From contig OX485803.1 of the NCBI GenBank assembly GCA_950295325.1, positions 62,387,554 to 62,451,553 on the forward strand: a stretch of 64,000 nt of DNA, in the 5' to 3' direction. This document shows, piece after piece, positions 1 through 63,302 of this stretch. The notes beneath the pieces were generated by a model. That model was not told where the DNA came from. It worked only from the letters and a program-made list of their open reading frames with translations, and did no database searches. The stretch is from Polytrichum commune. Taxonomy: Eukaryota; Streptophyta; Polytrichopsida; Polytrichales; Polytrichaceae. The translations under genes and the position numbers were made by a program. Each line of letters opens with the position of its first letter. The first letter of the stretch is position 1.

Positions 1-1688
1 TTTGAAGGTGACCATGCAGAGGGACATCCATGAGAGGACGACAGCGCTTGACAAGGAGCGGTTTGAAGTGGCATGCCTGCGGCAAGACATCATTGATGAG
101 TACGAGAAGAAAAGCGGGGAGCTCCTGGATTACCTCAACAGCATGGAATCTGCGTTTGAGCGGCAAGGGCGGGAGTTCGATGTCCGGGAGGCCGCGCTCC
201 TCAAGTTGAACGAGGACCTCAAGCATGAGCTGAGTTGTGGGTCCCGGTTGAAGTGCAAGGCTGAGAAGGTGTTGATGTCCAAAACCCAGCACCAGCTGCA
301 CGAATGCAAGACGAGCTGGGAGGTGGAGCGAGCACTTGACATCCTCAAGGAGGAGTCCTCGGAGTACGAGAACAAGTACAGGAGTGAGCAACGGCGTGTC
401 CAGGTTAGTAAACGCTTAGCAGAATTCTCCGTTTCTCCAGAATTTCCCTTCAGACCCAGTCATTCCACCCTCCCATGAAATTTCTGGAATTGTCATTGCT
501 TTCAACATCCGATATGACATTAAAAGGAAGAAGAATGTGGAGGCATTCAAAACCTTTTGTGAAGAAGGGGCGTTGCAAAGTGACACGGAGTTATTAATGG
601 GGAGAACAGAAATTGTATCGCCTATTGGTTGTTAGTTCGTTTAACCATGTGAACCACATGGACAGGAGGGGCGTTCCAAAGTGACACGGAGTTATTTATG
701 GGGAGAACAGAAATTGTATCGCCTATTGGTTGTTAGTTCGTTTAACCATGTGAACCACATGGACAGGAAGCGCCACTTGCGGGTGCCACTGACATTTGGA
801 TGGTCTTTCGTAGCTATTAGGGAAAATGAGTCCCAAGTAGGTTAGTCTCGCCGAAACTAGTGCTAATGAGTAAAGTGGCGAATCCCGAATAGGGGACCCA
901 GCATCTGCGGAGTTGTTCACTTGCAGTTGTGGTGGTGATGCAACAGGAATTAGAAGTACTTGTCCACGATCTCCAGCGGGACGTGGAAAGGAGCGAGGAG
1001 GTGTCACTCAGGCAGAAAAGGAGGATAGAAAGAATGAAGAAGCGAATGGATGAGGAGAATCAGGAGCTCCGTCGCAAAGCTGCTTTGGGTTGGATGTTGG
1101 GCAGCCTATCTGGTACCACATCATATCAACAAATTGTGTCGTCGTTGTATGATCACATCCACAAAAGATTTGCAATTAGGAGTCGCTCTTGGTTTTGGAG
1201 TTGTCTTCAATGCATGGAGCAGGAGCGGAGCGTGAGTTGATGTGGATGGCTTTGCAGATATGTACTTGCGTCTCGATTCAGGGGTTGGCGCACCTGGCAT
1301 CCTGAAGCTGGTGAGAAAGGTGCAACGGGAGCTTGCATCCGGGAGCAATGTCTTCGAGGGACGAAACCTGCCACCCAAGGGTGAGTATGATTTGATCCAG
1401 CGAGAGATCATGCGCCTCATCCGCCAATCCCCCAATGCAGGCACTCGATCCACCACAACCACGAAGCCAGTCAACAAACCCGTGGAGTCTTGTGCCATGA
1501 TCAAGGAGGCCGCGTTGAAGAAACCTTGGGAACAGAAGCTCGCTGGGGACGCTGATGAAGCGACCACCAAGCGACGGAGGCGGCGATGGCGCAACTGGTG
1601 GGACCACAACCTGCCAACATCTGCAGCGCAGCTGCCGCAACTGCGCCCGCAAAGCAGACCTGCCACCGCTCCGCCTTCCCCCTTGTGA
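1..1688 (+). CDS. Coiled-coil protein, unknown function, 5' end outside window
   Basis: I do not recognise this gene. The first visible exon (to 403) is open at the left edge and encodes a long charged helix rich in Glu, Lys, Arg and Leu, with no Pro before residue 130, typical of a coiled coil. A GT donor follows codon 'VQ' at 403. An AG acceptor at 946 keeps the phase and continues the same kind of helix (QRDVERSEEVSLRQKRRIE). A further exon probably begins near 1257, after TTTGCAG, and encodes KLVRKVQRELASGS, then an Arg/Lys-rich stretch (TTKRRRRRWRNWW) and a Pro/Ala-rich tail ending at the stop at 1686-1688. The splice between about 1100 and 1256 is not settled. Coding exons are GC-richer than the flanks. 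Coiled-coil character is seen directly; any role (tether, cytoskeletal) would be speculation. Confidence 0.55.
566..768. repeat. Tandem duplication, about 101-bp unit x2
   Basis: Units at 566-666 and 667-768 match except at about two positions (TTGC/TTCC and TTAA/TTTA). Each ends with a small palindrome, CCATGTGAACCACATGG. The duplication lies in the intron between 403 and 947 of the coiled-coil gene. Confidence 0.9.
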
Positions 1689-1892
1689 GTGCCTCTCCAT
1701 ACTTGTCCTCTTCAAGGCCCGCTCCATGGTCGATGCCTCTTAAGTGGCTCGTTCTCTCAAGCGGACCTGGACCTCTACCTTTGGTTGCTAGGTGGTTCGG
1801 TGAAGATCAAAGAGCAAACATGTTTCAAAAAGATTGGACTACGTTTTCAAATATTCATAACCACACTCAATAGTGAACACAATTGCGGGCTG

Positions 1893-1975
1893 GGGCGAAC
1901 CAACCTATACACTAGTTCCTTGAAGGCAAGGGTTTATGCATCCAACAAGGAACGAGTGTATGGGTTGGTTCGCCC
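1893..1975. repeat. Hairpin-forming inverted repeat
   Basis: Arms 1893-1922 and 1946-1975 (GGGCGAACCAACC and its complement) pair at 28 of 30 positions around a 23-base loop. Weaker pairing extends outward, so this may be the core of a small fold-back MITE. It lies just past the 3' end of the coiled-coil gene. Confidence 0.8.
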
Positions 1976-2466
1976 AAATCCAATTGGGGGAGTTGTGTAT
2001 GTATTTGGTTAAGGAATCAACAAACATGCACTTGAGCTAATTAAGCATAACTAATCCACGGGAGGTCCGATTGCCAATTCGGTTTTGTGTCTATGCTTCC
2101 TCGTAGATTTGCTAATGCAACATGAGTTTTTCTGTGTAAATCTAATCGGTAGAAGTTGGAGAACATGAAAATTAAACCAAATAACACCCACATACCTTAC
2201 ATGACGTCATGTTTCCAAATCCCCACAAAATATGACTTTATAATAGGTCTCAATTCCTAAGTCCCGATCACATATACAACGGACATGGTGGTTGTGGTGG
2301 TGGTCACGGGGTGGGTTGTCGTCCCACCATTCTCTCCCGTTTCAAAAAGGTGGAGGAACACATGTGCAACGGGCCAGGACAGCTTAGGTCCAAGCTCGTC
2401 TAAATATACATTGGGCAACATGGGTAGACGTGGTCCCTGCGCTGGTCAAGACAGCACAAGTCCAAG

Positions 2467-2690
2467 CTACATTGATTATCCCAAGTAGTACGTGTTACTA
2501 TTTGGAGTTACGCAGTGCAATAACATCTTACTCATGAGTTCAATCTTTACTAACAAAAGTTCAATAAATTGTTTGAACATTATAGAACATGAATGACTTT
2601 TCTTGGTAAAATATTACATTCTCAATAAAGAGATATAGCACCTCGTAACTCCAAATGGTAACACGCACTAATTGGGATAATCAATGTAGT
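2467..2690. mobile_element. Small fold-back (MITE-like) element
   Basis: Arms at about 2467-2513 and 2643-2690 (outer ends CTACATTGATTATCCCAA) are inverted copies of about 47 bp with roughly five mismatches, around a 130-bp AT-rich centre. There is no coding capacity and I could not fix a target-site duplication. Confidence 0.65.
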
Positions 2691-3848
2691 ATCCTACATG
2701 GCAACAAGTATGAAGCCAAGAAGTTGGGGCTTTACTTTGGAGTTGGGTTGGCTGAAAGTGGTGGCTCAACTTCAAGTCCCAATGATTCTTTGCATTAAAA
2801 ATTAGCAGGAATTAATCATATCTTGGCCATTGTATTGGAAGAGTTGTTTTTTACTTGGAGGAGAAGACAATGGGTTGTTTTGTCTTTCAAGTTGTGTTTA
2901 TGTCAGCTTTTTGTGCCTATTGATGTAGTAGGGTTTCCCTCAAAAAACATTCACTTGTTATAGATGGAAGATTTACCTCAAACCCAGCCTTATGGAATTA
3001 GTGAACAAGAATTTGTTGCTCCAGGGAATTTTGTTGCTCCAAGTACCATATGATTCCACCCATCTTTGTTTCAAAGAAATGTGGGTCATAACAATCTTAA
3101 TAATGATAGAGCCTGAACTTAATGAAATCCTATGCAATTTGGCGCACATCACCAAGCAGATCCAATACCTAATCGATTAAACCCTAATGCAATTCTAAGC
3201 TCTCTAGCGATACATTCTCTTAAATGTGTACCAAGACTATTACAATAATGTCCTAGAATTGTGCACAAGAACCTGAATGTTGATGGACTAACATGTTCAC
3301 AAATCCACACAATCTTGGAACCTGACATGCTATTCTTGTTTTCCTAATTTTGCCTCATTCAACAATCAAAACAGTCATCATTATCGATCAGGCATTTTGC
3401 TCATTCATCGCAACTTGACGTATTAACAAAATGCCAACAATGGTATGTTTCACAATTATGAAGAGTGTGATCTCTTCTTAATTGCATGCCTAAGGAAGCA
3501 TAACATAGTAGATTTCAACATATAAGTGGTTAAGTGGACTTGGCAAAATGGCGAAATGTACGAGCCTTGCACTTTGGACTTTGTCCTTCACACTAAAATA
3601 GCCCAAGTCACATGAAATGCAAAAGGGCCCATGAAGTTGGGACTCTCACCTCTACGTGGGACTTCACAAAGTGGGACTCGGGATATCAGTGTAAAGCAGG
3701 CCTTGTATGTATGCACACACAACCACCTTCCAATTCTCAAGCATTTTAGTGTTGGAACACTAACCTAGAGTGAATATTTGTTTACCCAAGCAATTATTTA
3801 AGCCACTATCTTCCATCCAATAGCAAAACATGGTAAAATCCTCATTAC
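2691..3848. other. Intergenic, nothing recognised
   Basis: AT-rich sequence. The only frames are about 60 codons with no family likeness, and I see no repeat structure or RNA gene. Confidence 0.5.
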
Positions 3849-3926
3849 CTATATAAACCCATCAAGTGATACCACCAGTCCAACACTGGTTGAGTTGTAA
3901 CCCTCACAACTCGATTCTGTGCTGGC

Positions 3927-4620
3927 ATGGATATAATGTGCAGCTTGAATTTGGAGAGTTGCCACCCACCCCTTACACAGAACAATGGTGCGGACACCTC
4001 CAGGCTTCTGCACAACAAACCCACATACGGTGAGGTAGTGGACTTGAAGAAGCAAACTCCAAACTCCAAGAAGAGCACATGGGCAGAGATCCGGCTCCTG
4101 AACAATGACGAAGCCTCGCGGGCTGCAGCATGGGCATCCACCATGGAGGTGAAGGGCCTGCTCAAGGGGTTGGAGACCAGCATGACCTTCCTCATGTCTC
4201 ACGAAAGACGGAGACGTGCTTGACAGATTGGGTGACAACTATGCACACAAGTTCTGATACTACATGTTTCTAAATCTCGTTCTTATCAATTCATTCATTG
4301 CAGGCTTCAGGCCATCTTTGAGTGAGCTTTACGTTACCAGGAATGATCCTCATTTCAAGATTACTCAAATTTTTGACAACTCAAGTTGTCGCAGGCTTTT
4401 GTGCTTCGGTGATGAAGCTACAACATGTTTGTTTTGAATCTACGACATGCAGCGGACCTTTGCATATACTCTCCAGGTTTCAGAGAGACCACTTTGCGAA
4501 GTCCCTTTTTCCCATGCAAAAACGACAGCAGTCTTGGTCGGGTATGTGAAATGTGTCCTCCAAAGAGGTTCTGGTTATGCACGTTGAGGGATGTACTTGG
4601 GAACCTTCAGTTCTAGGTTA
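3927..4620 (+). pseudogene. Broken protein-coding remnant, family unknown
   Basis: A 98-codon frame from 3927 has natural-looking composition (EIRLLNNDEASRAAAWAS, MEVKGLLKGLETSMTFLM) and ends at 4223. In the next frame, with no splice signal between, comes LTKDGDVLDRLGDNYAHKF, ending at a stop near 4254. After an acceptor-like TTCATTGCAG (about 4303) another protein-like stretch, PSLSELYVTRNDPHFKITQI, runs to an in-frame TGA near 4437 and then resumes as MQRTFAYTLQVSERP. Coding-like segments broken by a frame change and a stop suggest a decayed gene. Alternatively it could be a real gene with unrecognised splicing. I do not recognise the family. Confidence 0.35.
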
Positions 4621-5316
4621 ATATCGAGGATGTGCCCAGGTGACACCTCATTCTCAAAAAACTAAAATGGTAGCTGAACCAGAACTTTCACAAGTTGGAG
4701 CAGATAGGTTAGGTATTTTGTCTGCACGACAGTGATTTTGAAGAAGCCGAAGTCACAATATGAGGGATAAAAACGAGAACATTGAAGCAAATCAATCAGA
4801 AACACCCACACAATGCAGATGGGGGTAGAAAGAGTAAAGAAGAGTCAGGGCGTTCCATTTAGGTTTTCCGTCATTTCACTCTTATTCACTCCTGCTTCCA
4901 ATGTGTACTCAATTATATCTTGCAACTAGCCATCAATCTTCTACCACAAATGCTGCACCCTCTTCTCTTTTCACTCTTAACACCTATGGCTATGAAACTC
5001 CTACAGATGAAACCCTGACACTCTTCCAATACTCGGAGTGTTGTTCTTGTGCAATCCTGTCAGGTTATGTTATAAGTAAGAATTAGCCACCGGTGCAGGG
5101 CAAAAATGAGTCTCTGAGTACATGATACCCTTCAGTTAGTTTACCCTTAACCTGATCGTACCAGGTAGATCCCTGGTTTCTTCCGACTCAGGTTCAATAT
5201 GATCCAGAAACGTCCCAAGCCCCCATTTCTTTGAAGAGAGTTGTTGCAATACGGAATTCCTATCTACACCATACCCAAAAGATGCAGGAAGTTCATTTAA
5301 AAAATAAAGAGCAATT
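4621..5316. other. Intergenic, nothing recognised
   Basis: No convincing coding frame, repeat or RNA gene. The right end (about 5280-5316) lies just beyond the probable poly(A) site of the TRAF-like gene on the - strand. Confidence 0.5.
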
Positions 5317-11300: not shown

Positions 11301-14300
11301 CATCACCAGACTTCTTTGCTTCTGATGGTTGACAGCATTCAACCATGATATCTAGCAGAAGATCAACTATGGCTTGCTGTAGCACTTTCACTCCCATCAG
11401 AAGGTTCATAAGGCTAGGGGATGATGCCTCCCCTCTTCCTGCTGCATTTTTGCCTCCAGCTCCTCCAGAACTTGCTGTTGAAACTTTAGTTGGGAGAAGC
11501 AACCGCTTTACCTTTGCAGGGTCATCTAAGTATACCCTCAAGCCTGAAACACAAAAAATCACCTCTTTCTTAGCCACTTTATCAAAATTTCTGGAAGAAA
11601 CAACTTCTCATGTGATCTTTACAACATAGTTTTATCAAGTTATTAGCTAGTGACATAAGTTAAAAATCAATCTAATCCTTGGTTTTTTAACAAAGCAGCA
11701 GAAAAAATTGCTACTAACAAAAAGTCTATCCTTCTGTATTTCAAAGCAATAGTCCTTAATCCACAACAGACATCATAGAATCAGAGTACTAGACTAGGTT
11801 AATGTGCAAATATGTGAACTGCAGAAGAACACACCTGCAAGGAAGGCAGCTACAGCCCCTGCATCCATCAACAACTTCTCTCGCAAAGTGACCTGTAGCT
11901 GGGATGGATCCAGTAAGAGGGGCGGGTTATCCCCGTAGCTCAAATGGAATCCAGCCCTTGCTAACAAGCTTCGGAATATGTCTTCTTCATCACCACTAAT
12001 ACCATCACTATCGTCAGAATCTAAAAGCTCATCTGGATCAGTGGAAAGCGCATCCTGCTCCTCATCCGAGATCAAAACCTGCAAGTAGTTGGATTGTGTA
12101 AATTTATTTTGTGTGGTCCCAACCAGCAAATTCAATTCTTCAATGCCCAAGAATGATTCATTTCACATGTTGCTGTGCATCTGGTGTCTATGACGTTTAC
12201 AATGAACTAGATCAAAAATTTCAACTATACTAATAGATGCCCTGTCACCAACAAGATCAATTACCTCCAGATCCGAGAACTCAAACCATGGACAGCAGTC
12301 AAGGATCTCACACACAAACACCACAGTGTCACGGACCAAGAATCCAGCATCAGCTTCCACCATGTCTGACACCTTCATGAACTGCAAGACTGAATTGTTC
12401 CAAGTCTTGGTGCATATTGAAGACTCTTTCCAAACTGTGCGATCTGCATGCTTTTGATTCACTACTGCCATGCGGTACCTCACCCAGAAGTTCCGGTCTG
12501 GATCTGCTCCTATTGATTGGTCACTTTCTAGGTAGATACAGAGTGTGTCAAAGGATTCATATACACCTGCAATTAACAGAGTTCCACATGTCAATTGGCC
12601 ATTTGCAAGAAAAACATATTGAAAGTAAGCAAACAGCTCAGACATTGACGTCCTCAAAACTATGCACATTGTACTCTCATGTGTCATGGTCCATCAGAAT
12701 GTATCATGATTGAAAGAACCATCATGATTGCAAGAACGATTTATCATCCTTAAATACTGTAAAATGACGTTGTAGCAATTCTTTCCAGCAACTGATATCC
12801 ATGATAGTTGATGCATTGCCACATTCCATCCAGTTGACCATATTCAACTCCAAACAGTTCTCATAAAAATTTCTAGTTAAGCTACTAGCATCAATCCCCA
12901 TGGGATGACACCAAACTCTAAATGCTTATACCACATAAATGTTCAATGAACCTATAATATTTAAGTTCTTGAATAGGGAAATAACCTATAAATGCTTAAT
13001 TCACGAGGTACTATGCTTGAACTTCGGACACAAGGTTGGTTATTGAGGTCCAATAAATCAAATTTCATTTTCATGCTGGATAGTGCCCTTAGAAGACAAT
13101 TGCAGAACTGTGACCTAAAGAACAGATAATCATCAACATCACTCAATTTTGCTTACGTGTACATAAAAGCCATCCCTCAACTAAGTGTGTAAGAAACCAC
13201 CCACCTATGCGAAGCTCACAACCTCCTGCTTGGAAAAACTTGCTGAAAATCTTGCGAGTCTCCATGATTTCTTTGAATGCCAGAAAATTTTCTACACGCC
13301 ATGTAAAATTTCCACGATTGACAATTTTGCCTGTCTCATTTCCACCTGCTACAGCTGGGGCCTCCCCTTCATACTCGGGGAGTTCCAGCATTGTGGACAT
13401 TTCTTTCAATATCAACACCTCTGCAGAAAAAATAACCATATCTTGCACCAGGAATCCAGAATCCTGATCAAAAAGGCTGGTAAGAGTGACAAATTCACGC
13501 CATCCCCAGTCTTTGGCAGCCTTTGAATATCGATTTTGAGACTCTTTTGTGACAGATCGGTCCTCTGTTCGTTGATTTACAACTGACAACCGGTGGCTCA
13601 CAAAGCAGCTCCAGTCAGCAGAGGTATTGCGAGGATCTGTTACCTCGAGAAACATCGATAGATGGCATGGAGGTTGTGATTGACCTAAACCATAGTCACC
13701 ATACATAGCAATTAGGTGCAACCCATCAAAGGTCAGGAGAGCTTGCATGAAGTAAGGCGAACCAATTGTGATTGCTTACAACCACCCAACTAATGTTCCA
13801 GGTATCAAACAATTGAAAAAAGATTCACACATTTACAATCTGCCCTTGTCTTTTAAAGAATGGCATTATTCACCAGACGTTTACTTGCAAAGTCCATCCA
13901 AACCCTCCGTGATCATCATGTGCAACAAGTATACCTCGAGGGTAGACAATTAGTCGACAATCTCGGTTACCAACTTGAAACCTCCGACTCTTGATGCAGA
14001 GGCCAGTGATCTTCCGCTTCTTAAGCAGATCCTTTAGCCGAGTGAAATTTTCAATTCGCCACATGAACTTGCCTTGATACCCATCACTCTTCTTTGCATT
14101 TGCTCCTCGTGCACTTACTGGCCCTATATTTTTCGAGAATGTGCTAGACTCTTTTATCACATGAAAGGAGGCACTAAATACTGCAGTATCATCTACCAAA
14201 TAACCCATCTCGGGAGCCACAAAATCAGCCATCTTCATGTAATCGTTCCATCCAAGACTAGTGTTGTCCCCACTCTTGTTGTCAGCTGCAAACCGCCCAT

Positions 14301-15312
14301 ACGAGTCGCGGTGCATATGGTTCATCCCTGCCCGCTGGTTCAACACAGACATACGAAACAAACACCAGCAACTCCGCTCGGGGACGCTCGACTTCTCCGT
14401 GTCCTTACTTTCTAAACACATGGACAAGTAATCTATACCACTAACGGATGATTGGTACACACTTAACCTCAGATTACATTCCCCAGCTGGAAACACCGGG
14501 CTCATGATTTTCTGGGTTTTGATCATCTCCTTGAACAAAGACAAATTATGCACTTTCCATGTAAATTTCCCACTGAGCACTTCAGGAACAGGCCCCACAG
14601 TCACAGGCAATTCATTCTCCCTGGAGAATGACACTGATTCATGCAGCACTAAAATCTCAGCTGTAATAAGCACCGCCTCGTTAGCAACGAACCCCCCCTT
14701 CACATCCAACACAGTAGACGACGGCGTAAAATCACACCATCCATGTGACTTCTTTTTCCCAGAGAATCTATGCCACGAGTCTCTCTGTATGGATTTCGAC
14801 TCATCCCTCTGATTCACTACACATAACCTATAGCTCGCGAAGCAATCCCACTTGGAGGAGGAAGATCCCCGAGGATCGGTGACTTGCAGGTAAATCGAAA
14901 GGTAACCTGGCAATGCCTGCGAATCTCCCCTCGGGTACACCAGCAAGCGGCAGTCATACCCTCCCACTTCAAAGTAGCGGCTCCAAAGCGCACGTGCTTT
15001 CACTTTCGCAAACTGCACAATCGTCCACTTACATACTGCTGCGTGCTCCCCTCTCTTCTCCACGATCACAGACTCCTGCCCGCCTTCTCGTGGCTCGTCT
15101 CCGTTCTCTCCTCCCCTCGCCACACCATTCTTCTCCCCTCGCACTGCCACCATTGAATTCTCCATGCCCCCCCCGCTTACCGCCACGGCTACCGCAGCAG
15201 GAGCAGCAGCAGCGGCCTCCACCACCGCTGCTCCTGCTGCTCCTGCAGTTGTTGATGCCGTCGTCGTCGTCGTCGTTGTTGCGTCTTGCACGCAATTCGG
15301 CATGCTCGCCAT
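5383..15312 (-). CDS. Large TRAF-like protein with four MATH domains and C-terminal coiled coil
   Basis: Thirteen exons join in frame to 1,745 residues: 15312-13935, 13684-13205, 12566-12265, 12078-11835, 11543-11254, 10271-9984, 9730-9452, 8979-8818, 8528-8304, 8171-7410, 6793-6578, 6223-5963, 5733-5383. The N-terminus has Thr and Ala runs. Four MATH/TRAF folds follow, at about 93-232, 250-395, 415-565 and 590-720, with recurring CRLLVYPRG and VVNQR motifs. The middle is helical (KWPEQSDELLGLIVNSLRAL). The C-terminal 300 residues are a coiled coil ending HGNGHINGTVGPWYPPA. Layout and wording match, from memory, the Arabidopsis TRAF-like protein of about 1,670 residues (At2g25320 type). MATH domains bind peptides, so a scaffold role is likely, but no enzyme motif is visible and the function is unproven. 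The start is the first ATG of a 459-codon first exon. Confidence 0.9.
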
Positions 15313-54528: not shown

Positions 54529-57293
54529 ATGTGGGCATGGCGGATCCTGGTAAGGCACAATCCTCTTGGACAAGGAGGCTATAATGTGTTGCGTCCATCG
54601 TTGCAAGCTGCACGATGGGCTCATAATGAGGCACACACGCCTCCCAAGTTCAAGCAAGAACTACGGCGCCTTTATAAGCTCATTCACCCAGATCTACTCC
54701 ACAATTATCCTTCCAAGCAGGTACCATCTAGTTTCTTTACTTTGTAGTACTATTTTGGTGAAGTTTGGGTGTTCAGTATGACTTTCAGTGAAGATATGCA
54801 TAACTTAAACGGAACACATGGAACTGGTCTTTTTTGTAGGTCAGTATATAGTAAAAATTCAGATTAGATTTTCTGAAGAAATTGAAAAGAAAATTTCATG
54901 AAAGGTTCATGTTCTGCTCAGTAATCCTAGACTGAGAACCTGCTAAAGATGGACTGACAGAAGTTTGCAATTAACATGCAGGCAACCAATTTACGTTCCT
55001 TTCAGCTGCTACAGGAGTATTTGAATGCTGCAAAGGGTGGAAACACCTCTCATCGCTTCATATACCACTTTGAATTTTTTATCAGGCGTGCTGATAATAA
55101 TAATGGAGATGCAAACAATGACAATGTACTGGAACGAGTTGAAGTCTCACTTCCCCTGCCGCAGGTCAAGTTTCATCCACAAAGAGGAACTGAAATGTTG
55201 CCTGGCACAAAAAGTGCCATTGGGAAACTATTTGCCGCATGTGGGTTGTCTGCTGAAGTTACTGGAGGGTTAGCTGGTGATGAACCGGTGAGCCTCTCAG
55301 ACTTCTTCCAACAAGCTTCAGAGCGGCAAAGGCAGAATGAGGCTTCAGTTTTAAACCTTGAACAGCAGGTAATGCTGACTGCCGCACTTGGAAAACTTTT
55401 ATCGCAATTCTCTGAGAGATTAGATGTGTTGTTTTTGTCCAGCTAGGTGCCTTCTGCTGCACCTATATTTTATCCTATCTGAAGTCTCCATCTTTTTGTG
55501 TTGATCTGTCATTATAATTTGGCATCATCAATAGTAAGTCAATAAGTATGATTGCTCTGTGTAGAATTCTGAATAGGTGTAGGGCCATCCATCTCAGCAA
55601 CTTCTTATTTTAGAACCTCATACCAGAATTATGTTGTTGCAGGTCATCATGGTGAAGAATGCTATGCGAATGAGAAGTGGGATAACAGTGTCTTTTCTGC
55701 CAGCTTTAGCAGATGCACCTGTTGCAATGGTGATGGAAGCTTTGGAAAAGTTGGCAAAGGTGTTAGACAGAAGCAAAGATATTCCTTTATCTGGTTTTGC
55801 AATCATGGTAGGTGACTGCTATGGGATTGATGCACTTGGCAACCTTTGGATTGATCACAATGACAGAACCGAAATGTGGACCCAGTTCTTGCATACGGTA
55901 CGCACATTAGAACTGTCAGTGTAGATATTACTTGTTTTCTTCATATATCTGGAACTAGATTTACATGCATCATTTGTGTGAAATGCTGCTTGAGCAGTTT
56001 GTGAAACAGTGGCTATGATGATTGGCACATAAAATGTGGAGTACTGCAACCTCTTGAAAGACTTTCCGGTGTGTTCTATATTTAATTACTTTTCTGATCA
56101 TGTTTGCAGGTGGATCTGCCAGAAGCAGCAGCTCGGAAAGTGGCAGCAAAGGAGCGACATTCAAAGGAAGTAGAAGTTGCAAAACTCATGCAAGTGGCAA
56201 TGATCTTTACACATGCTTCACTGGCTGTCTCTCCTGCATATTCTCTTTTTCTATCAGGAATGGCAGAAGGTGCTAAGATTCATGGTTCCATAGGTGGCGG
56301 CAAGTTCAGTGAGCTGCCTGTACGAGTTACTGGTAAAAAATTTCTTCTCGGCTACTCTGTTCATTTTGCAATTTTTATTAACTAACGTATAATAGAGTTA
56401 CCCTTTAAGTTAATTAGGCTTTAGGTCTTGAGTTGGTCCCCTATGATTTTTCATTGGCTGTTCTGCATACAAAATCAATCATTTCTTTTCACTTGTGCAT
56501 GCTCGGAGGTTGTGTTGATTTTGAATGAAGAGCAACATGTTTCGGTTCATTGAGGGCCAAACACCTCTTGGCATTCTTTAATGAGTTAGTCAATATGGAA
56601 TGTTCTTCTGTCAAACCTCCAAGCGTTAGCGAAATTGGAAGGTGTTGTATGCAAAATAACCAACTCCCAAGCAAAAGCCATGTTGAGTTAGAGGATAACT
56701 CTAATATGGTGGCATTTCATTTGAATCAGATGGTTGACTGAAATGCATTTGGCTTGAATTTCAAACTTGTACGAATGGTCCCACATTTCAAAACCTCAAC
56801 TGCCTAAATCGTGCAGCTTACAATCAAACATGGCATTTACTGATCAGATGTGTTTGTTGTGGCAGAGGCTAATCGAGAAAGAATAGAGCTGGGGGGGAAT
56901 AGTAGTCAAACATCAGGTTGTTACATCGATGAAGATGCTGGGGCTGTTTTAGTTCCTGTTTCAGCCAATTATTTGGTAATATCTCAATTCATATCGCAGC
57001 GAGGTGAAGCAGCACTCACATATAAGAATAGACACGAGGATACGGAAAGAAGGCTTGGGGACCTCAAGGTACAAGCAAGAAAGAAGTTGAGACTTAGGCA
57101 CTTGACATTTGATCCTGTGCTTACCAGGGATCAACAAACATCTGCTTGTGTGAGGTTGTTAAGGAGTGCGCCAGACTTGTTGAGATACACAGAGGGCTTG
57201 TCTCTCTGCATTTCCAATGAGTTTCGGTTGCCCCTACCAGGCTCCAAAGGGCTAGCATGCCTTAAATGGGATTTCAGCGTGTCTGATTTGTGA
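54529..57293 (+). CDS. TCAIM-like mitochondrial protein (DUF4460/DUF4461, J-like HPD motif)
   Basis: Five exons join in frame to 494 residues: 54529-54720, 54982-55368, 55643-55897, 56110-56332, 56866-57293. The first 35 residues are Arg-rich and lack acidic residues before Glu34 (MWAWRILVRHNPLGQGGY), as in mitochondrial presequences. A DUF4460 region follows with KFKQELRRLYKLIHPDLLHN, where HPD (53-55) is the J-domain signature. The rest matches DUF4461, ending LACLKWDFSVSDL. Layout and length match animal TCAIM (about 496 residues), a mitochondrial protein. In plants the role is unknown; a J-protein partner of mitochondrial Hsp70 is a reasonable inference from HPD. All four introns have clean GT-AG ends. 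The frame at 54976-55446 is exon 2 plus read-through. Confidence 0.88.
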
Positions 57294-59170: not shown

Positions 59171-59449
59171 AATTGCAAAATTTGGTCATGCTACCCCAAG
59201 ACTTGAGAAAGTGATGACTAGGTACCACCTACTTCAGAACTATAGGTTCATCATGTGAAACGTACCCATAAACCTCTCAAGGTCCACCGACTCTCTCATT
59301 ACAACCCCATTGACATGGAGAGATCATGTTTCTGGTTGTGCACTCCAACCGTTGACAATTGGGTAGAAACATGACATTCTTTTGCACTAGGCCCATAATT
59401 TAGGGCTGACATAGTTGTACATAGTTGGATGACTTTTGCTAGAACACAA

Positions 59450-60540
59450 TAAGAAGAAGAAGAACTCCGGTCTCCGGAGGAGGCCGGAGTGACTAGAGTG
59501 TATGTTCGTAGAACATCCTTAGCCACGCCCTAAGGCAATGGTGTTGGATGTAGAACTACTTCACCCTTTTTCAGGGAGTCGACCCTATATTAGTAACAGA
59601 TAGCCGGTTACCGGTAACCGGTAGTATGTGGTAGTTTTTTAGTGGGGTTTATCTAGTAAAGTGGCGTTCCTTATATGTTGGGGTGTACCGAGCTGTGATA
59701 TGGGTTGTTTGGTTATCCTAGGTCTTGAAGGTTTGCAACAGATTGTTTGTTCTCTAGTCTACGTTTATGGACTAGTATTGAATGTGCATATTATGTGGCG
59801 ATAATGTTAATTTGTTGGAATGCGTTTTTTTTTTTTTTGAGAGGGAGTTTAAGTATTGTTTCTAGGTTTTGGATTGATGGAATGTGTGTAGTGGCTCTTG
59901 CACCTGCGACTAGTACCATGAGTGCGGCTACATTCCAACCCCTTGTGGTAATGTTATTGATGAGCGGTTGGTATTTTGTGGTTTTTCTATTGAGGGTTTC
60001 TACTGTAAATCTATCATTGCAGTATGTAAATTCTATGAATTGTATTGTGATTCCGGTTGTAGGGGTTTTTGGTGGGGGGTGGTTATATGGATGTCCTATG
60101 ACGCATAGTATGTCTGGTTTAAACGTGGCGTTGCACTGGCATCTATGGGTGCCACATGTGCATGGTAATAGCCATGCTGGCACGGTATTTTCTTGAGGTC
60201 GTTCGTTGTACGTTCCCGCATTCATGAGTGTGTAGTGTCTAGATATTTTATTTGATAAAATTAATTTGCGTATTTCCCATACAACTTTGTTATGTCGTTT
60301 TGTTATGAGTGCGTGAATGTGTTGTTGTTTGCATTTGAGTAGTACATGTAACCATGTATCTGCATCTGATGAGTTGGAGCTGGGACACGTTTTTGATGGG
60401 TAGGCTTCTCTACCAAAAAAGAGTTGCTTACGGGCATGGCCCATGTATTCCATAGTTCTGCTTAATATTCCATACACATTGGACATGACCGTCCATGAAT
60501 CCACAGGCTTGAAAGCTAGACATGACCGGACTAAACAACA
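59450..60540 (-). mobile_element. Non-LTR retrotransposon fragment with endonuclease domain, copy 2
   Basis: On the - strand this runs from a 5'-truncated coding frame (60504-59791) through a 3' UTR to a hairpin and TTC-repeat tail at about 59450-59480. The UTR is collinear with 40390-40697 (copy 1). The 5' boundary near 60540 is uncertain. The - strand is strongly C/A-biased. Confidence 0.65.
59791..60504 (-). pseudogene. Retrotransposon C-terminus: zinc knuckle and restriction-like endonuclease (RLE)
   Basis: 237 open codons form the C-terminal part of a larger retrotransposon protein; the reverse transcriptase itself is missing. Visible in order are a partial CCHC knuckle (C40, H53-X4-C58, with an expected Cys near 37 absent), the RHN motif (residues 70-72, in KRHNKVVWEIRKL), a Cys-rich insert (CTCGTHRCQC, 115-124), PD at 130-131 (FKPDILCVIG), E158 (FIEFTYCNDR) and K174/K177 (NRKTTKYQPL). 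RHN, then PD, E and K is the pattern of the PD-(D/E)XK endonuclease at the end of R2-, NeSL- and Utopia-type non-LTR elements, which cuts target DNA for target-primed reverse transcription. The frame is open to its stop, so decay is recent or slight. The assignment rests on motif order only. Confidence 0.65.
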
Positions 60541-61840
60541 ATTCCTAGCAATATGTGATTTTATTATTTATTTGAATATGTTAAGTTTTGTGTCATGACT
60601 ATGCAAAACATTATTAGGTCATGTACCCGAGTTCTTTAGATGTATACATGATATTCATCTACTTTATAATTGGCAAGTCACTGGCAACCTGGACTCTCAC
60701 GTACCCATGCATGTATGCCGTATATTAGAAATTGAACAAAGCCTTCTTTTTTTCACTAGGTGCTCGAAGGTCGGGAACAAACCATGTTAGAGAAGTTGGA
60801 GAACATTTATGTGGTAGATTGAGATGATTTGCGTACCGAGGCGATTGATTTTGTATTCGAGCACCACGCATTTCTCTTTGAGCATGTTGTTCCGCCGAGC
60901 CTCCGCTTCCGCCATGTTTGTGGTCGTTCCTACGCTTCATGGTGGATGCAATGCGGTGAGTTCGACGGCATGAGGGAAATCACGAAAGCAATGAGATGCG
61001 AATTCAAAGAGAATACGATTCCCCCAAAGAAAGCCCAAAACATGAATGATTTTGCACATCTTGAGGTGGGAGGCAATGGTTTGAGATTGGGATACCTTGC
61101 GTCGATGAGGTGTTGGAATATTTGAATGAAAGGAGTAATTCCACCTTAATGCGTTGCGCTGCAATGGGTTGATAGGCAATTCGCCCGCTCCTCGAACGAG
61201 AGTCCTTCCGAGAGGAGGAGGAGGAGGAGGAGGAGGAGGAGGAGGAGGAGGCTCATAATAGTGGAGATCAAGCGGTTACTTTACACGTTTACTAGTGTAT
61301 TCCCAAGTGAATGATCTTCTAGTTGCACTAACACATGTAGTTAGTTAGTGTTGGAAACCTTTTGGAGTTGCAGTGTGATGTAACATGCGTGTAGTTTTCC
61401 CCTTGTCATCACATTCAACTTGAACCAAAATCTACCTAAGACATACTAGGGCCTTTCCATTTTTGACCGTGTGAACGTGGCCGGGCTTCATGGCACCTCA
61501 CAAACTTCTCTTTTGTGATCATAAGGACACCATTGTAAATGTTATTTTCATAATTTGATAAAAAAACAACGCAGTCCATACGGCGTACACGATTGAGAGG
61601 ATATTAGCGGGCGTGACGATGGACGGCCTCTTTCAATTTTCTTATCCCTCCCAACCATTGTGTGCATTAAAATATGATTTCAACCTCGTAAACCCACCAA
61701 GACTTGAATGAAACGCTTGTTGGAGGCTCGTACGAACCACGGTTGCTTAGGCCAATATATATAACTAACATGTATGTCCCGGTGCCCATGAAGGTGAAGG
61801 GGTAAATAAATAAATAAATAGGTGGTCGCTTGGAATTTGT
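60541..61840. other. Spacer with GA-rich microsatellite
   Basis: A 98-codon + strand frame at 60829-61125 (VFEHHAFLFEHVVPPSLRF) and a GAG array at 61211-61251 could belong to a decayed gene with an acidic tail, but I recognise no family. An (AAAT)n run lies at about 61803-61822. Confidence 0.35.
61211..61251. repeat. (GAG)n microsatellite
   Basis: About 13 uninterrupted GAG units. Confidence 0.95.
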
Positions 61841-62271: not shown

Positions 62272-62375
62272 GAGGCAACGCTGCTGTGCGTCGGATCGAG
62301 TTGGAGGATTAGGAAGGTCGCGACACCTTAGGGTTGAGTGAGAAAAGGGCAGGGTCGTTCGAAAGCGGGGGCAAG

Positions 62376-63302
62376 ATGTCGATGTCGAAGACGTCCAAGT
62401 TGTTGCAATATATAAATTGGCGGATGCGCGTGACGATACAAGATGGACGACTGCTGATTGGCAAGTTCATGGCGTTCGATCGCCACATGAACTTGGTGCT
62501 CGGCGACTGCGAGGAGATTCGTCGCGTGCCTCCCAAGAAGGGCAAGACGCAAGAAGAGAGAGAGGAGAGGCGGACTTTAGGACTGCTCCTTCTCCGCGGA
62601 GAGGAGGTGATTTCCATGACAGTGGAGGGGCCTCCCCCTCCCGACGAATCCAGGGCTAAAGCAGCAGCAGCCGCAGCAGGAGGTCCAGGAGTGGGACGAG
62701 CTGCAGGACGAGGTATTCCCACTGCGCCCGCGAACCAAGCTCAACCAGGTCTGGCAGGGCCCGCGCGGGGGGTGGGAGGCCCGGCTCCCGGAATGATGCA
62801 ACCGAGGGCTCCAGTGCCGCAAGTGTCCGCAGGTCCAGTGACCTACAATCCCGCCCCGGCCGTTCCGATTCCCGGAGTGCGCCCTCCCGGTCCTCCACCC
62901 GGTCAGTACGCTCCTCGCCCAATGCAAGGTCCTCCAGGCGGTCCTCCTCCTGGCATGCGTCCCCCGGGGCAGATGATGTCCGGGCCTCCGGGACAAGGTC
63001 CACCGCAGTATGGAGGCCCTCCCGGTTCCAGACCAATGCCACCACCTCCTGGCCCTCCTCAGCATGGCATGCCTCCTCCTTACGGGCAGCGCCCCATGGG
63101 CCCTCCCCAAATGATGCGAGGGCCTCCTCCTGGAATGGGAGGGCCCGGAGGTCCCCCCAGGCCAGGCATGCCCCCGGGTATGCAAGGCCCACCTAGACCT
63201 GGAATGCCTCCTCCTCCTGGTGCACCACCTGGAATGTATGGCGGTCCTCGGCCAGGAATGCCCCCTCAACAGCAGCAACAGCAACAACAGCCGCCGCAGT
63301 AG
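62376..63302 (+). CDS. SmB: Small nuclear ribonucleoprotein-associated protein B (SmB)
   Basis: 308 residues in a single exon. The Sm fold fills about residues 5-85: [19 protein letters not shown] (Sm1 side), [17 protein letters not shown] (RNA-contacting loop) and [20 protein letters not shown] (Sm2 with the LRGxxV/I signature). The rest is a low-complexity Pro/Gly/Met tail with PPGM and GPP repeats, ending in a Gln run ([13 protein letters not shown]), as in SmB/B' proteins. SmB is part of the heptameric Sm ring on U1, U2, U4 and U5 snRNAs. The start is the ATG at 62376; the frame is open upstream without another ATG. Lack of a coding intron contrasts with the multi-exon neighbours. The long antisense frame at 62577-63380 is only a composition shadow. 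Confidence 0.95.

Follow-up and report, generated by a model that had tools for sequence, protein, structure and literature searches.

The locus and its open reading frame

The window, as we call the whole stretch of 64,000 nucleotides that was analysed, carries on its minus strand an ORF at 59791-60567 (P0001), which is open for 258 codons from stop to stop and occupies 59791-60504 when counted from a GTG. Its neighbours are a DUF4461 frame at 56844-57290 and an LSM-domain frame at 62313-63299, the latter SmB-like by inspection. The window contains five frames of at least 258 codons. When it was Markov-shuffled as a whole, one shuffle in 60 produced such a frame, and of 300 shuffles of the surrounding 1.8 kb none did.

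The ORF displays the motif order HX4C, RHN, KPD, E, KX3Y, which is the order of R2. At 60331-60387 lies a degenerate CCHC knuckle, which retains the first Cys, the His and the last Cys (HX4C; H74/C79) and has lost the second Cys, as judged by a spacing rule from PMC5678591, which treats knuckle spacing and the fold of the restriction-like endonuclease (RLE). This is followed by RHN (60289-60297; residues 91-93), a Cys-rich stretch, CTCGTHRCQC (60133-60162; residues 136-145), the predicted catalytic motif KPD (60112-60120; residues 150-152), Glu 179 within IQFIEFTYC as the predicted second acidic catalytic residue (60031-60033), and KTTKY with a candidate catalytic Lys (59971-59985; residues 195-199). 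A regular expression for this order, composed after the ORF had been seen and with its spacers widened so that the ORF would pass, matched 3/3 R2 controls (R2 proteins from PDB alignments) and found nothing in 300,000,000 residues drawn at random with the composition of the ORF. The ORF and its motifs are present as the preliminary description had reported them.

Pfam returned no family for the window ORF, and the NCBIfam and PDB sequence searches gave weak matches only, none bearing on it. Single-sequence AlphaFold models reached pLDDT values of 33 and 32, which carry no confidence, and a Foldseek search with the first of them, at a pLDDT too low for confidence, had 147 matches when E was allowed to reach 10 and none at E 0.001. 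When the knuckle and RHN part (residues 54-110) was compared with individual R2 proteins, no shuffle was as good against R2Bm (0/2000), and 411/2000 and 182/2000 were as good against R2Tg and 9nl2; residues 172-242 were insignificant against each of the three. A three-sequence R2 profile was not significant; among the 1607 window fragments the ORF took second place (E 0.44), and hhalign gave a probability of 1.2%. Since only the R2Bm part was significant and the R2 profile was not, comparison with R2 alone fails to settle the identity of the ORF.

A relative on contig PUPH01000029.1

A single real relative came to light, namely the C-terminal part of an ORF of 1375 aa (608-4732) on contig PUPH01000029.1 (L003; 4856 bp). 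It was obtained by a scan of genome contigs with a query alignment, in which one of 39 pattern matches was confirmed. The window ORF aligned to this C-terminus with a Smith-Waterman score of 108 (z 15.5; 0/3000 shuffles as good) and by BLASTP with 39/146 identical residues (27%; E 1e-7). Among the 1607 window fragments, phmmer gave it the top rank (E 3.8e-7, against E 0.99 for the runner-up), and as a query against the whole 1.8-Mb bin of L003 it recovered L003 at E 1.5e-5. Residues 1-110, 54-110 and 111-170 were each unequalled in 3000 shuffles, and the resemblance of later segments was modest (33/3000 as good for residues 145-242, 13/3000 for residues 172-242). An open frame that arose by chance with chance motifs would be in keeping with the empty Pfam search and with an insignificant R2 profile in which the ORF came second; against the shuffles with L003, the homology that continues beyond the stop (below) and the absence of the motif from 3e8 random residues, however, its probability is negligible.

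The two proteins have in common the knuckle, RHN, P-x-W-L-x-P, PD, E-x-x-Y-C-x-D, and the C-terminal tail and end. RHN, KPD and Glu 179 were placed both by motif and by alignment to L003, the candidate Lys of KTTKY being offset by one residue from the closest Lys of L003. A C-terminal CCHC knuckle followed by an RLE with RHN, PD, D/E and K, the arrangement of RLE-type non-LTR retrotransposons in general, is therefore found in the window, with a degenerate knuckle and a Lys of uncertain register. Together with the regular-expression controls, this homology bears out the earlier reading of a partial CCHC, RHN, PD, E and K as RLE-type, the partial knuckle included, as its second Cys is indeed missing. 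The spacers are long: RHN and PD are separated by 57 residues in the window and 64 in L003 against 31 in R2Bm, and PD and E (or D) by 26 and 64 against 12. Of the two features that had been put forward as possible marks of a distinct clade, the long gap from PD to E is, like the long spacer before it, common to L003. The Cys-rich insert is not shown to be such a mark, as one of its four cysteines aligns to a Cys in L003 and three do not.

Three reconstructed RLE sequences and one reconstructed RT sequence were drawn up after the window ORF had been read, and may lean on it. Two of the RLE sequences, as the query alignment of the above scan, matched L003 (47% identity, E 2e-63) and the third fits it at z 38, and because of these matches the reconstructed sequences are taken to reflect a real family. 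Their own comparison with the window ORF (z 10.6 to 19.3) and a combined profile of L003 and reconstructed sequences, which placed the window ORF first (E 3.4e-14), were both set aside as main evidence on account of this possible bias.

On the L003 ORF, Pfam identified RNase H (E 7.6e-14) and PCIF1_WW (E 1.4e-7), both above cut-offs, and a RING-type finger below cut-off that is PHD-like by inspection; we take the PCIF1 domain to be of the cap-methyltransferase type. Finger, PCIF1 and RNase H stand in this order in the open frame upstream of the knuckle-RLE, some 140 residues separating RNase H from the knuckle, whereas the window has the 3' part only. Neither RT nor APE was found by Pfam on the 1375-aa ORF, and RVT_1 was not found in the genome bin of L003, the contig itself being 4.9 kb. 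The contig was binned as Thermoplasmata and is foreign to this archaeal bin, because its tetranucleotide profile and GC content deviate from those of five compared bin contigs: its profile correlates with theirs at -0.09 to -0.35, against 0.67 to 0.89 among themselves, and it has a GC content of 0.565, theirs being 0.43 to 0.48. The domains suggest a eukaryotic source, which we infer to be an alga. It is an observation in its own right that a single frame unites a RING/PHD-like finger, PCIF1, RNase H and RLE without RT on a contig foreign to its MAG; beside this ORF, at 13-216 on the minus strand, lies a piece of a ParA/MinD-like frame (Pfam AAA_31, E 1.1e-4, below cut-off).

Extent and decay of the window copy

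Homology to the L003 C-terminus starts at ORF residue 21 (60507) and takes in the knuckle, the RLE and the C-terminal tail over 59716-60507 on the minus strand, a region of 264 codons with one in-frame stop. This stop, a TAA at 59791-59793, breaks the frame ahead of the conserved tail. The L003 protein terminates in a basic tail, which the window frame past the TAA matches, and a second, probably original, stop codon at 59713-59715 coincides with the end of the L003 protein. The previously assigned interval of 59791-60504 thus does contain the ORF but misses 25 codons, as the homology reaches the stop at 59713-59715. The 49-residue window tail, which extends beyond both the A-tract and the TAA, was equalled by only 2/5000 shuffles in its fit to the L003 tail, and by 12/5000 in its fit to the whole L003 C-terminus; the post-stop piece alone was weaker (17/5000 and 70/5000, respectively). 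When the L003 tail was compared with 12,774 six-frame window tiles, the top two both came from this place (score 41, next 39), and the score against L003 rose from 108 to 123 when residues 1-290 replaced residues 1-258. Over the same 264 codons the other minus frames have 13 and 16 internal stops and the plus frames 20, 5 and 23.

As the homology crosses the in-frame TAA to the stop where the L003 protein ends, the window copy is most likely a pseudogene. A host gene exon, that is, a domesticated RLE nuclease under selection, would account for there being a single internal stop in 264 codons and for the retention of the predicted acidic catalytic residues; we nevertheless regard it as very improbable, given a stop ahead of the conserved tail, the lost knuckle Cys and an unconvincing coding homology upstream. 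The 40 codons upstream of the ORF bear no resemblance to L003 (2010/3000 shuffles as good), and the match of 140 upstream codons to the part of L003 between RNase H and knuckle is doubtful (z 1.9; 60/1000).

An A-tract at 59825-59838 was considered as the poly(A) tail at the 3' end of the element and rejected, since coding homology runs beyond it; it is internal to the coding homology. Further downstream, the minus-strand RNA of 59440-59570, a stretch chosen by eye, folds well (z -3.28; 0/200 shuffles as good) into a hairpin followed by a TTC-rich tract, and the longer stretch 59440-59712 gave z -2.18 (2/200); this could be the 3' UTR end of the element, or of a LINE or SINE, and is offered as a lead only. 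Direct repeats scored 6 at best at the TTC-rich tract, and no target-site duplication in the window rose above the null. The best direct repeat, the 9-bp TGTTGGAAT (59813-59821 / 61111-61119), was discarded with a score of 9, as 60 random anchors had a median of 8 and values up to 10. Two weak tblastn pieces at about 20.0 kb (E 0.5) were also dismissed as a second copy, as they form no coherent frame and are absent among the nine family-profile fragments listed.

Comparison with known RLE elements

The preliminary description had placed the element in an R2/NeSL/Utopia-like clade. R2 (R2Bm, R2Tg and 9nl2) shares with the window the order HX4C, RHN, KPD, acidic residue, KX3Y, but has the shorter spacers given above for R2Bm and is not known to carry RNase H. 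R2 elements target 28S rDNA and NeSL elements the spliced leader. Rfam at E up to 5 found no rRNA, U2 or SL RNA match over 57-63 kb, so that neither the 28S insertion typical of R2 nor insertion into the U2 snRNA gene, as in Utopia, was seen there; three matches fell below gathering scores (SNORD34, algC and Chlorobi-1). Utopia specificity varies by family, according to PMC4640811, which also describes a C-terminal zinc finger and RLE as in the window. Utopia differs in that its RNase H, described only from oomycete Utopia (a group treated in PMC5348765), is located upstream of RT. For NeSL of nematodes, a Ulp1-like protease is described. The relative carries RNase H and, on its ORF, no RT; Rfam gave neither rRNA nor U2 over 57-63 kb, and of the R2 proteins only R2Bm was significantly similar, in part. 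The R2/NeSL/Utopia-like placement is not upheld.

Among the RLE clades outlined in PMC4640811, Dualen combines APE and RLE. Dualen/RandI has in common with the relative that RLE and RNase H occur in the group, together with green algal hosts (PMC4640811 and PMC3747384); such elements are described from Chlamydomonas in PMC8226300, listed for green algae only in PMC4438587 and mentioned for cryptophytes in PMC12747079. Of the Dualen/RandI set of APE, RT, RNase H and RLE, two members were recognised on the L003 ORF, RNase H through Pfam and RLE through its homology; APE and RT were not found on it by Pfam. Kinship of the window element with Dualen/RandI, which was compared by description only, is possible.

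Interpretation

Taken together, the minus-strand region 59713-60507 is probably what decay has left of the 3' coding part of a retroelement of the RLE type. It lies between two genes, and the lineage would be akin to the alga-like protein with RNase H, CCHC and RLE; in this reading we place good, though not full, confidence. The presence of RNase H on the same L003 ORF supports a retroelement, as this domain is common in such elements. Tblastn of the L003 ORF and the reconstructed RT sequence against the window at E up to 1 matched the RLE part only, and no RNase H was found in the window. As RT was found neither in the window nor on the L003 ORF nor in its bin, the LINE label rests on the company of the domains. 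The term retrotransposon, used in the preliminary description, says more than the window shows: some 0.8 kb of coding sequence from a 3' end, interrupted by an in-frame stop, where searches for RT found none.

Alternatively, the source of the window piece might resemble the L003 ORF itself: a gene or non-autonomous element without RT, which would either use the RT of another element or be cellular. The only real relative is without RT on its 1375-aa frame and RVT_1 was not found in the bin, as this would predict; an RNase H and CCHC-RLE end, however, fits a retroelement, and an RT could sit beyond a contig that is only 4.9 kb long and foreign to its bin. We therefore consider such an origin unlikely, and favour the decayed retroelement end.

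In a working element of this kind, nucleic acid would be bound by the knuckle, while a nick made in the target by the PD-(D/E)XK nuclease would let reverse transcription start there (target-primed reverse transcription). The predicted acidic catalytic residues are kept in the window copy, which may have been inserted with 5' truncation through LINE-type mobility. One stop in 264 codons would point to a fairly recent origin. Stop-making changes are expected at 34.75 per unit divergence with transitions weighted half, so that at a divergence of 0.15 substitutions per site at most one stop would be seen with a probability of 0.034. Unless it was under selection, the copy has probably diverged less than this. 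The substitution rate in grasses is about 1.3e-8 per site and year, which would place its age under some 12 million years if the host is, as we presume, a grass.

L1 and RTE LINEs use the APE endonuclease. In flowering plants, to which the host probably belongs as judged from gene content, nearly all LINEs are of the L1 clade and RTE occurs in several species, according to PMC3747384. Our literature search, which did not extend to Repbase and subscription journals, found no paper that deals with RLE LINEs of maize, of angiosperms or of land plants, nor any RLE LINE of flowering plants in the titles and abstract starts among the matches listed. That flowering plants have, or recently had, a separate RLE lineage common to green algae, with long spacers around PD and active within about 0.15 substitutions per site, is a tentative proposal that we hold to be rather less probable than its converse. 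If true, the young RLE fossil would imply that the lineage was either acquired by transfer or has persisted unnoticed in plants from the green ancestor onwards, and the presence of working RLE elements in plants would become testable.

Other searches and observations

Eight scans of viral contigs yielded no relative of the window ORF; the pattern hits L001 and L002 were discarded as short frames without family likeness, L002 being antisense to a 1040-aa ORF. By tblastn, P0001 had no match among plasmids, nor had P0002 among plasmids and phages. In 389 genomes of the phylum of G001, drawn from a larger group, P0002 had one match, which was G001 itself. ARAGORN reported no tRNA in the window. 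On the plus strand, a 100-aa frame without a Pfam match lies in 60823-61251, and after it GAG is repeated 13.3 times (61212-61251). The minus strand of the window further carries a cluster of MATH-domain frames at 12163-15312.
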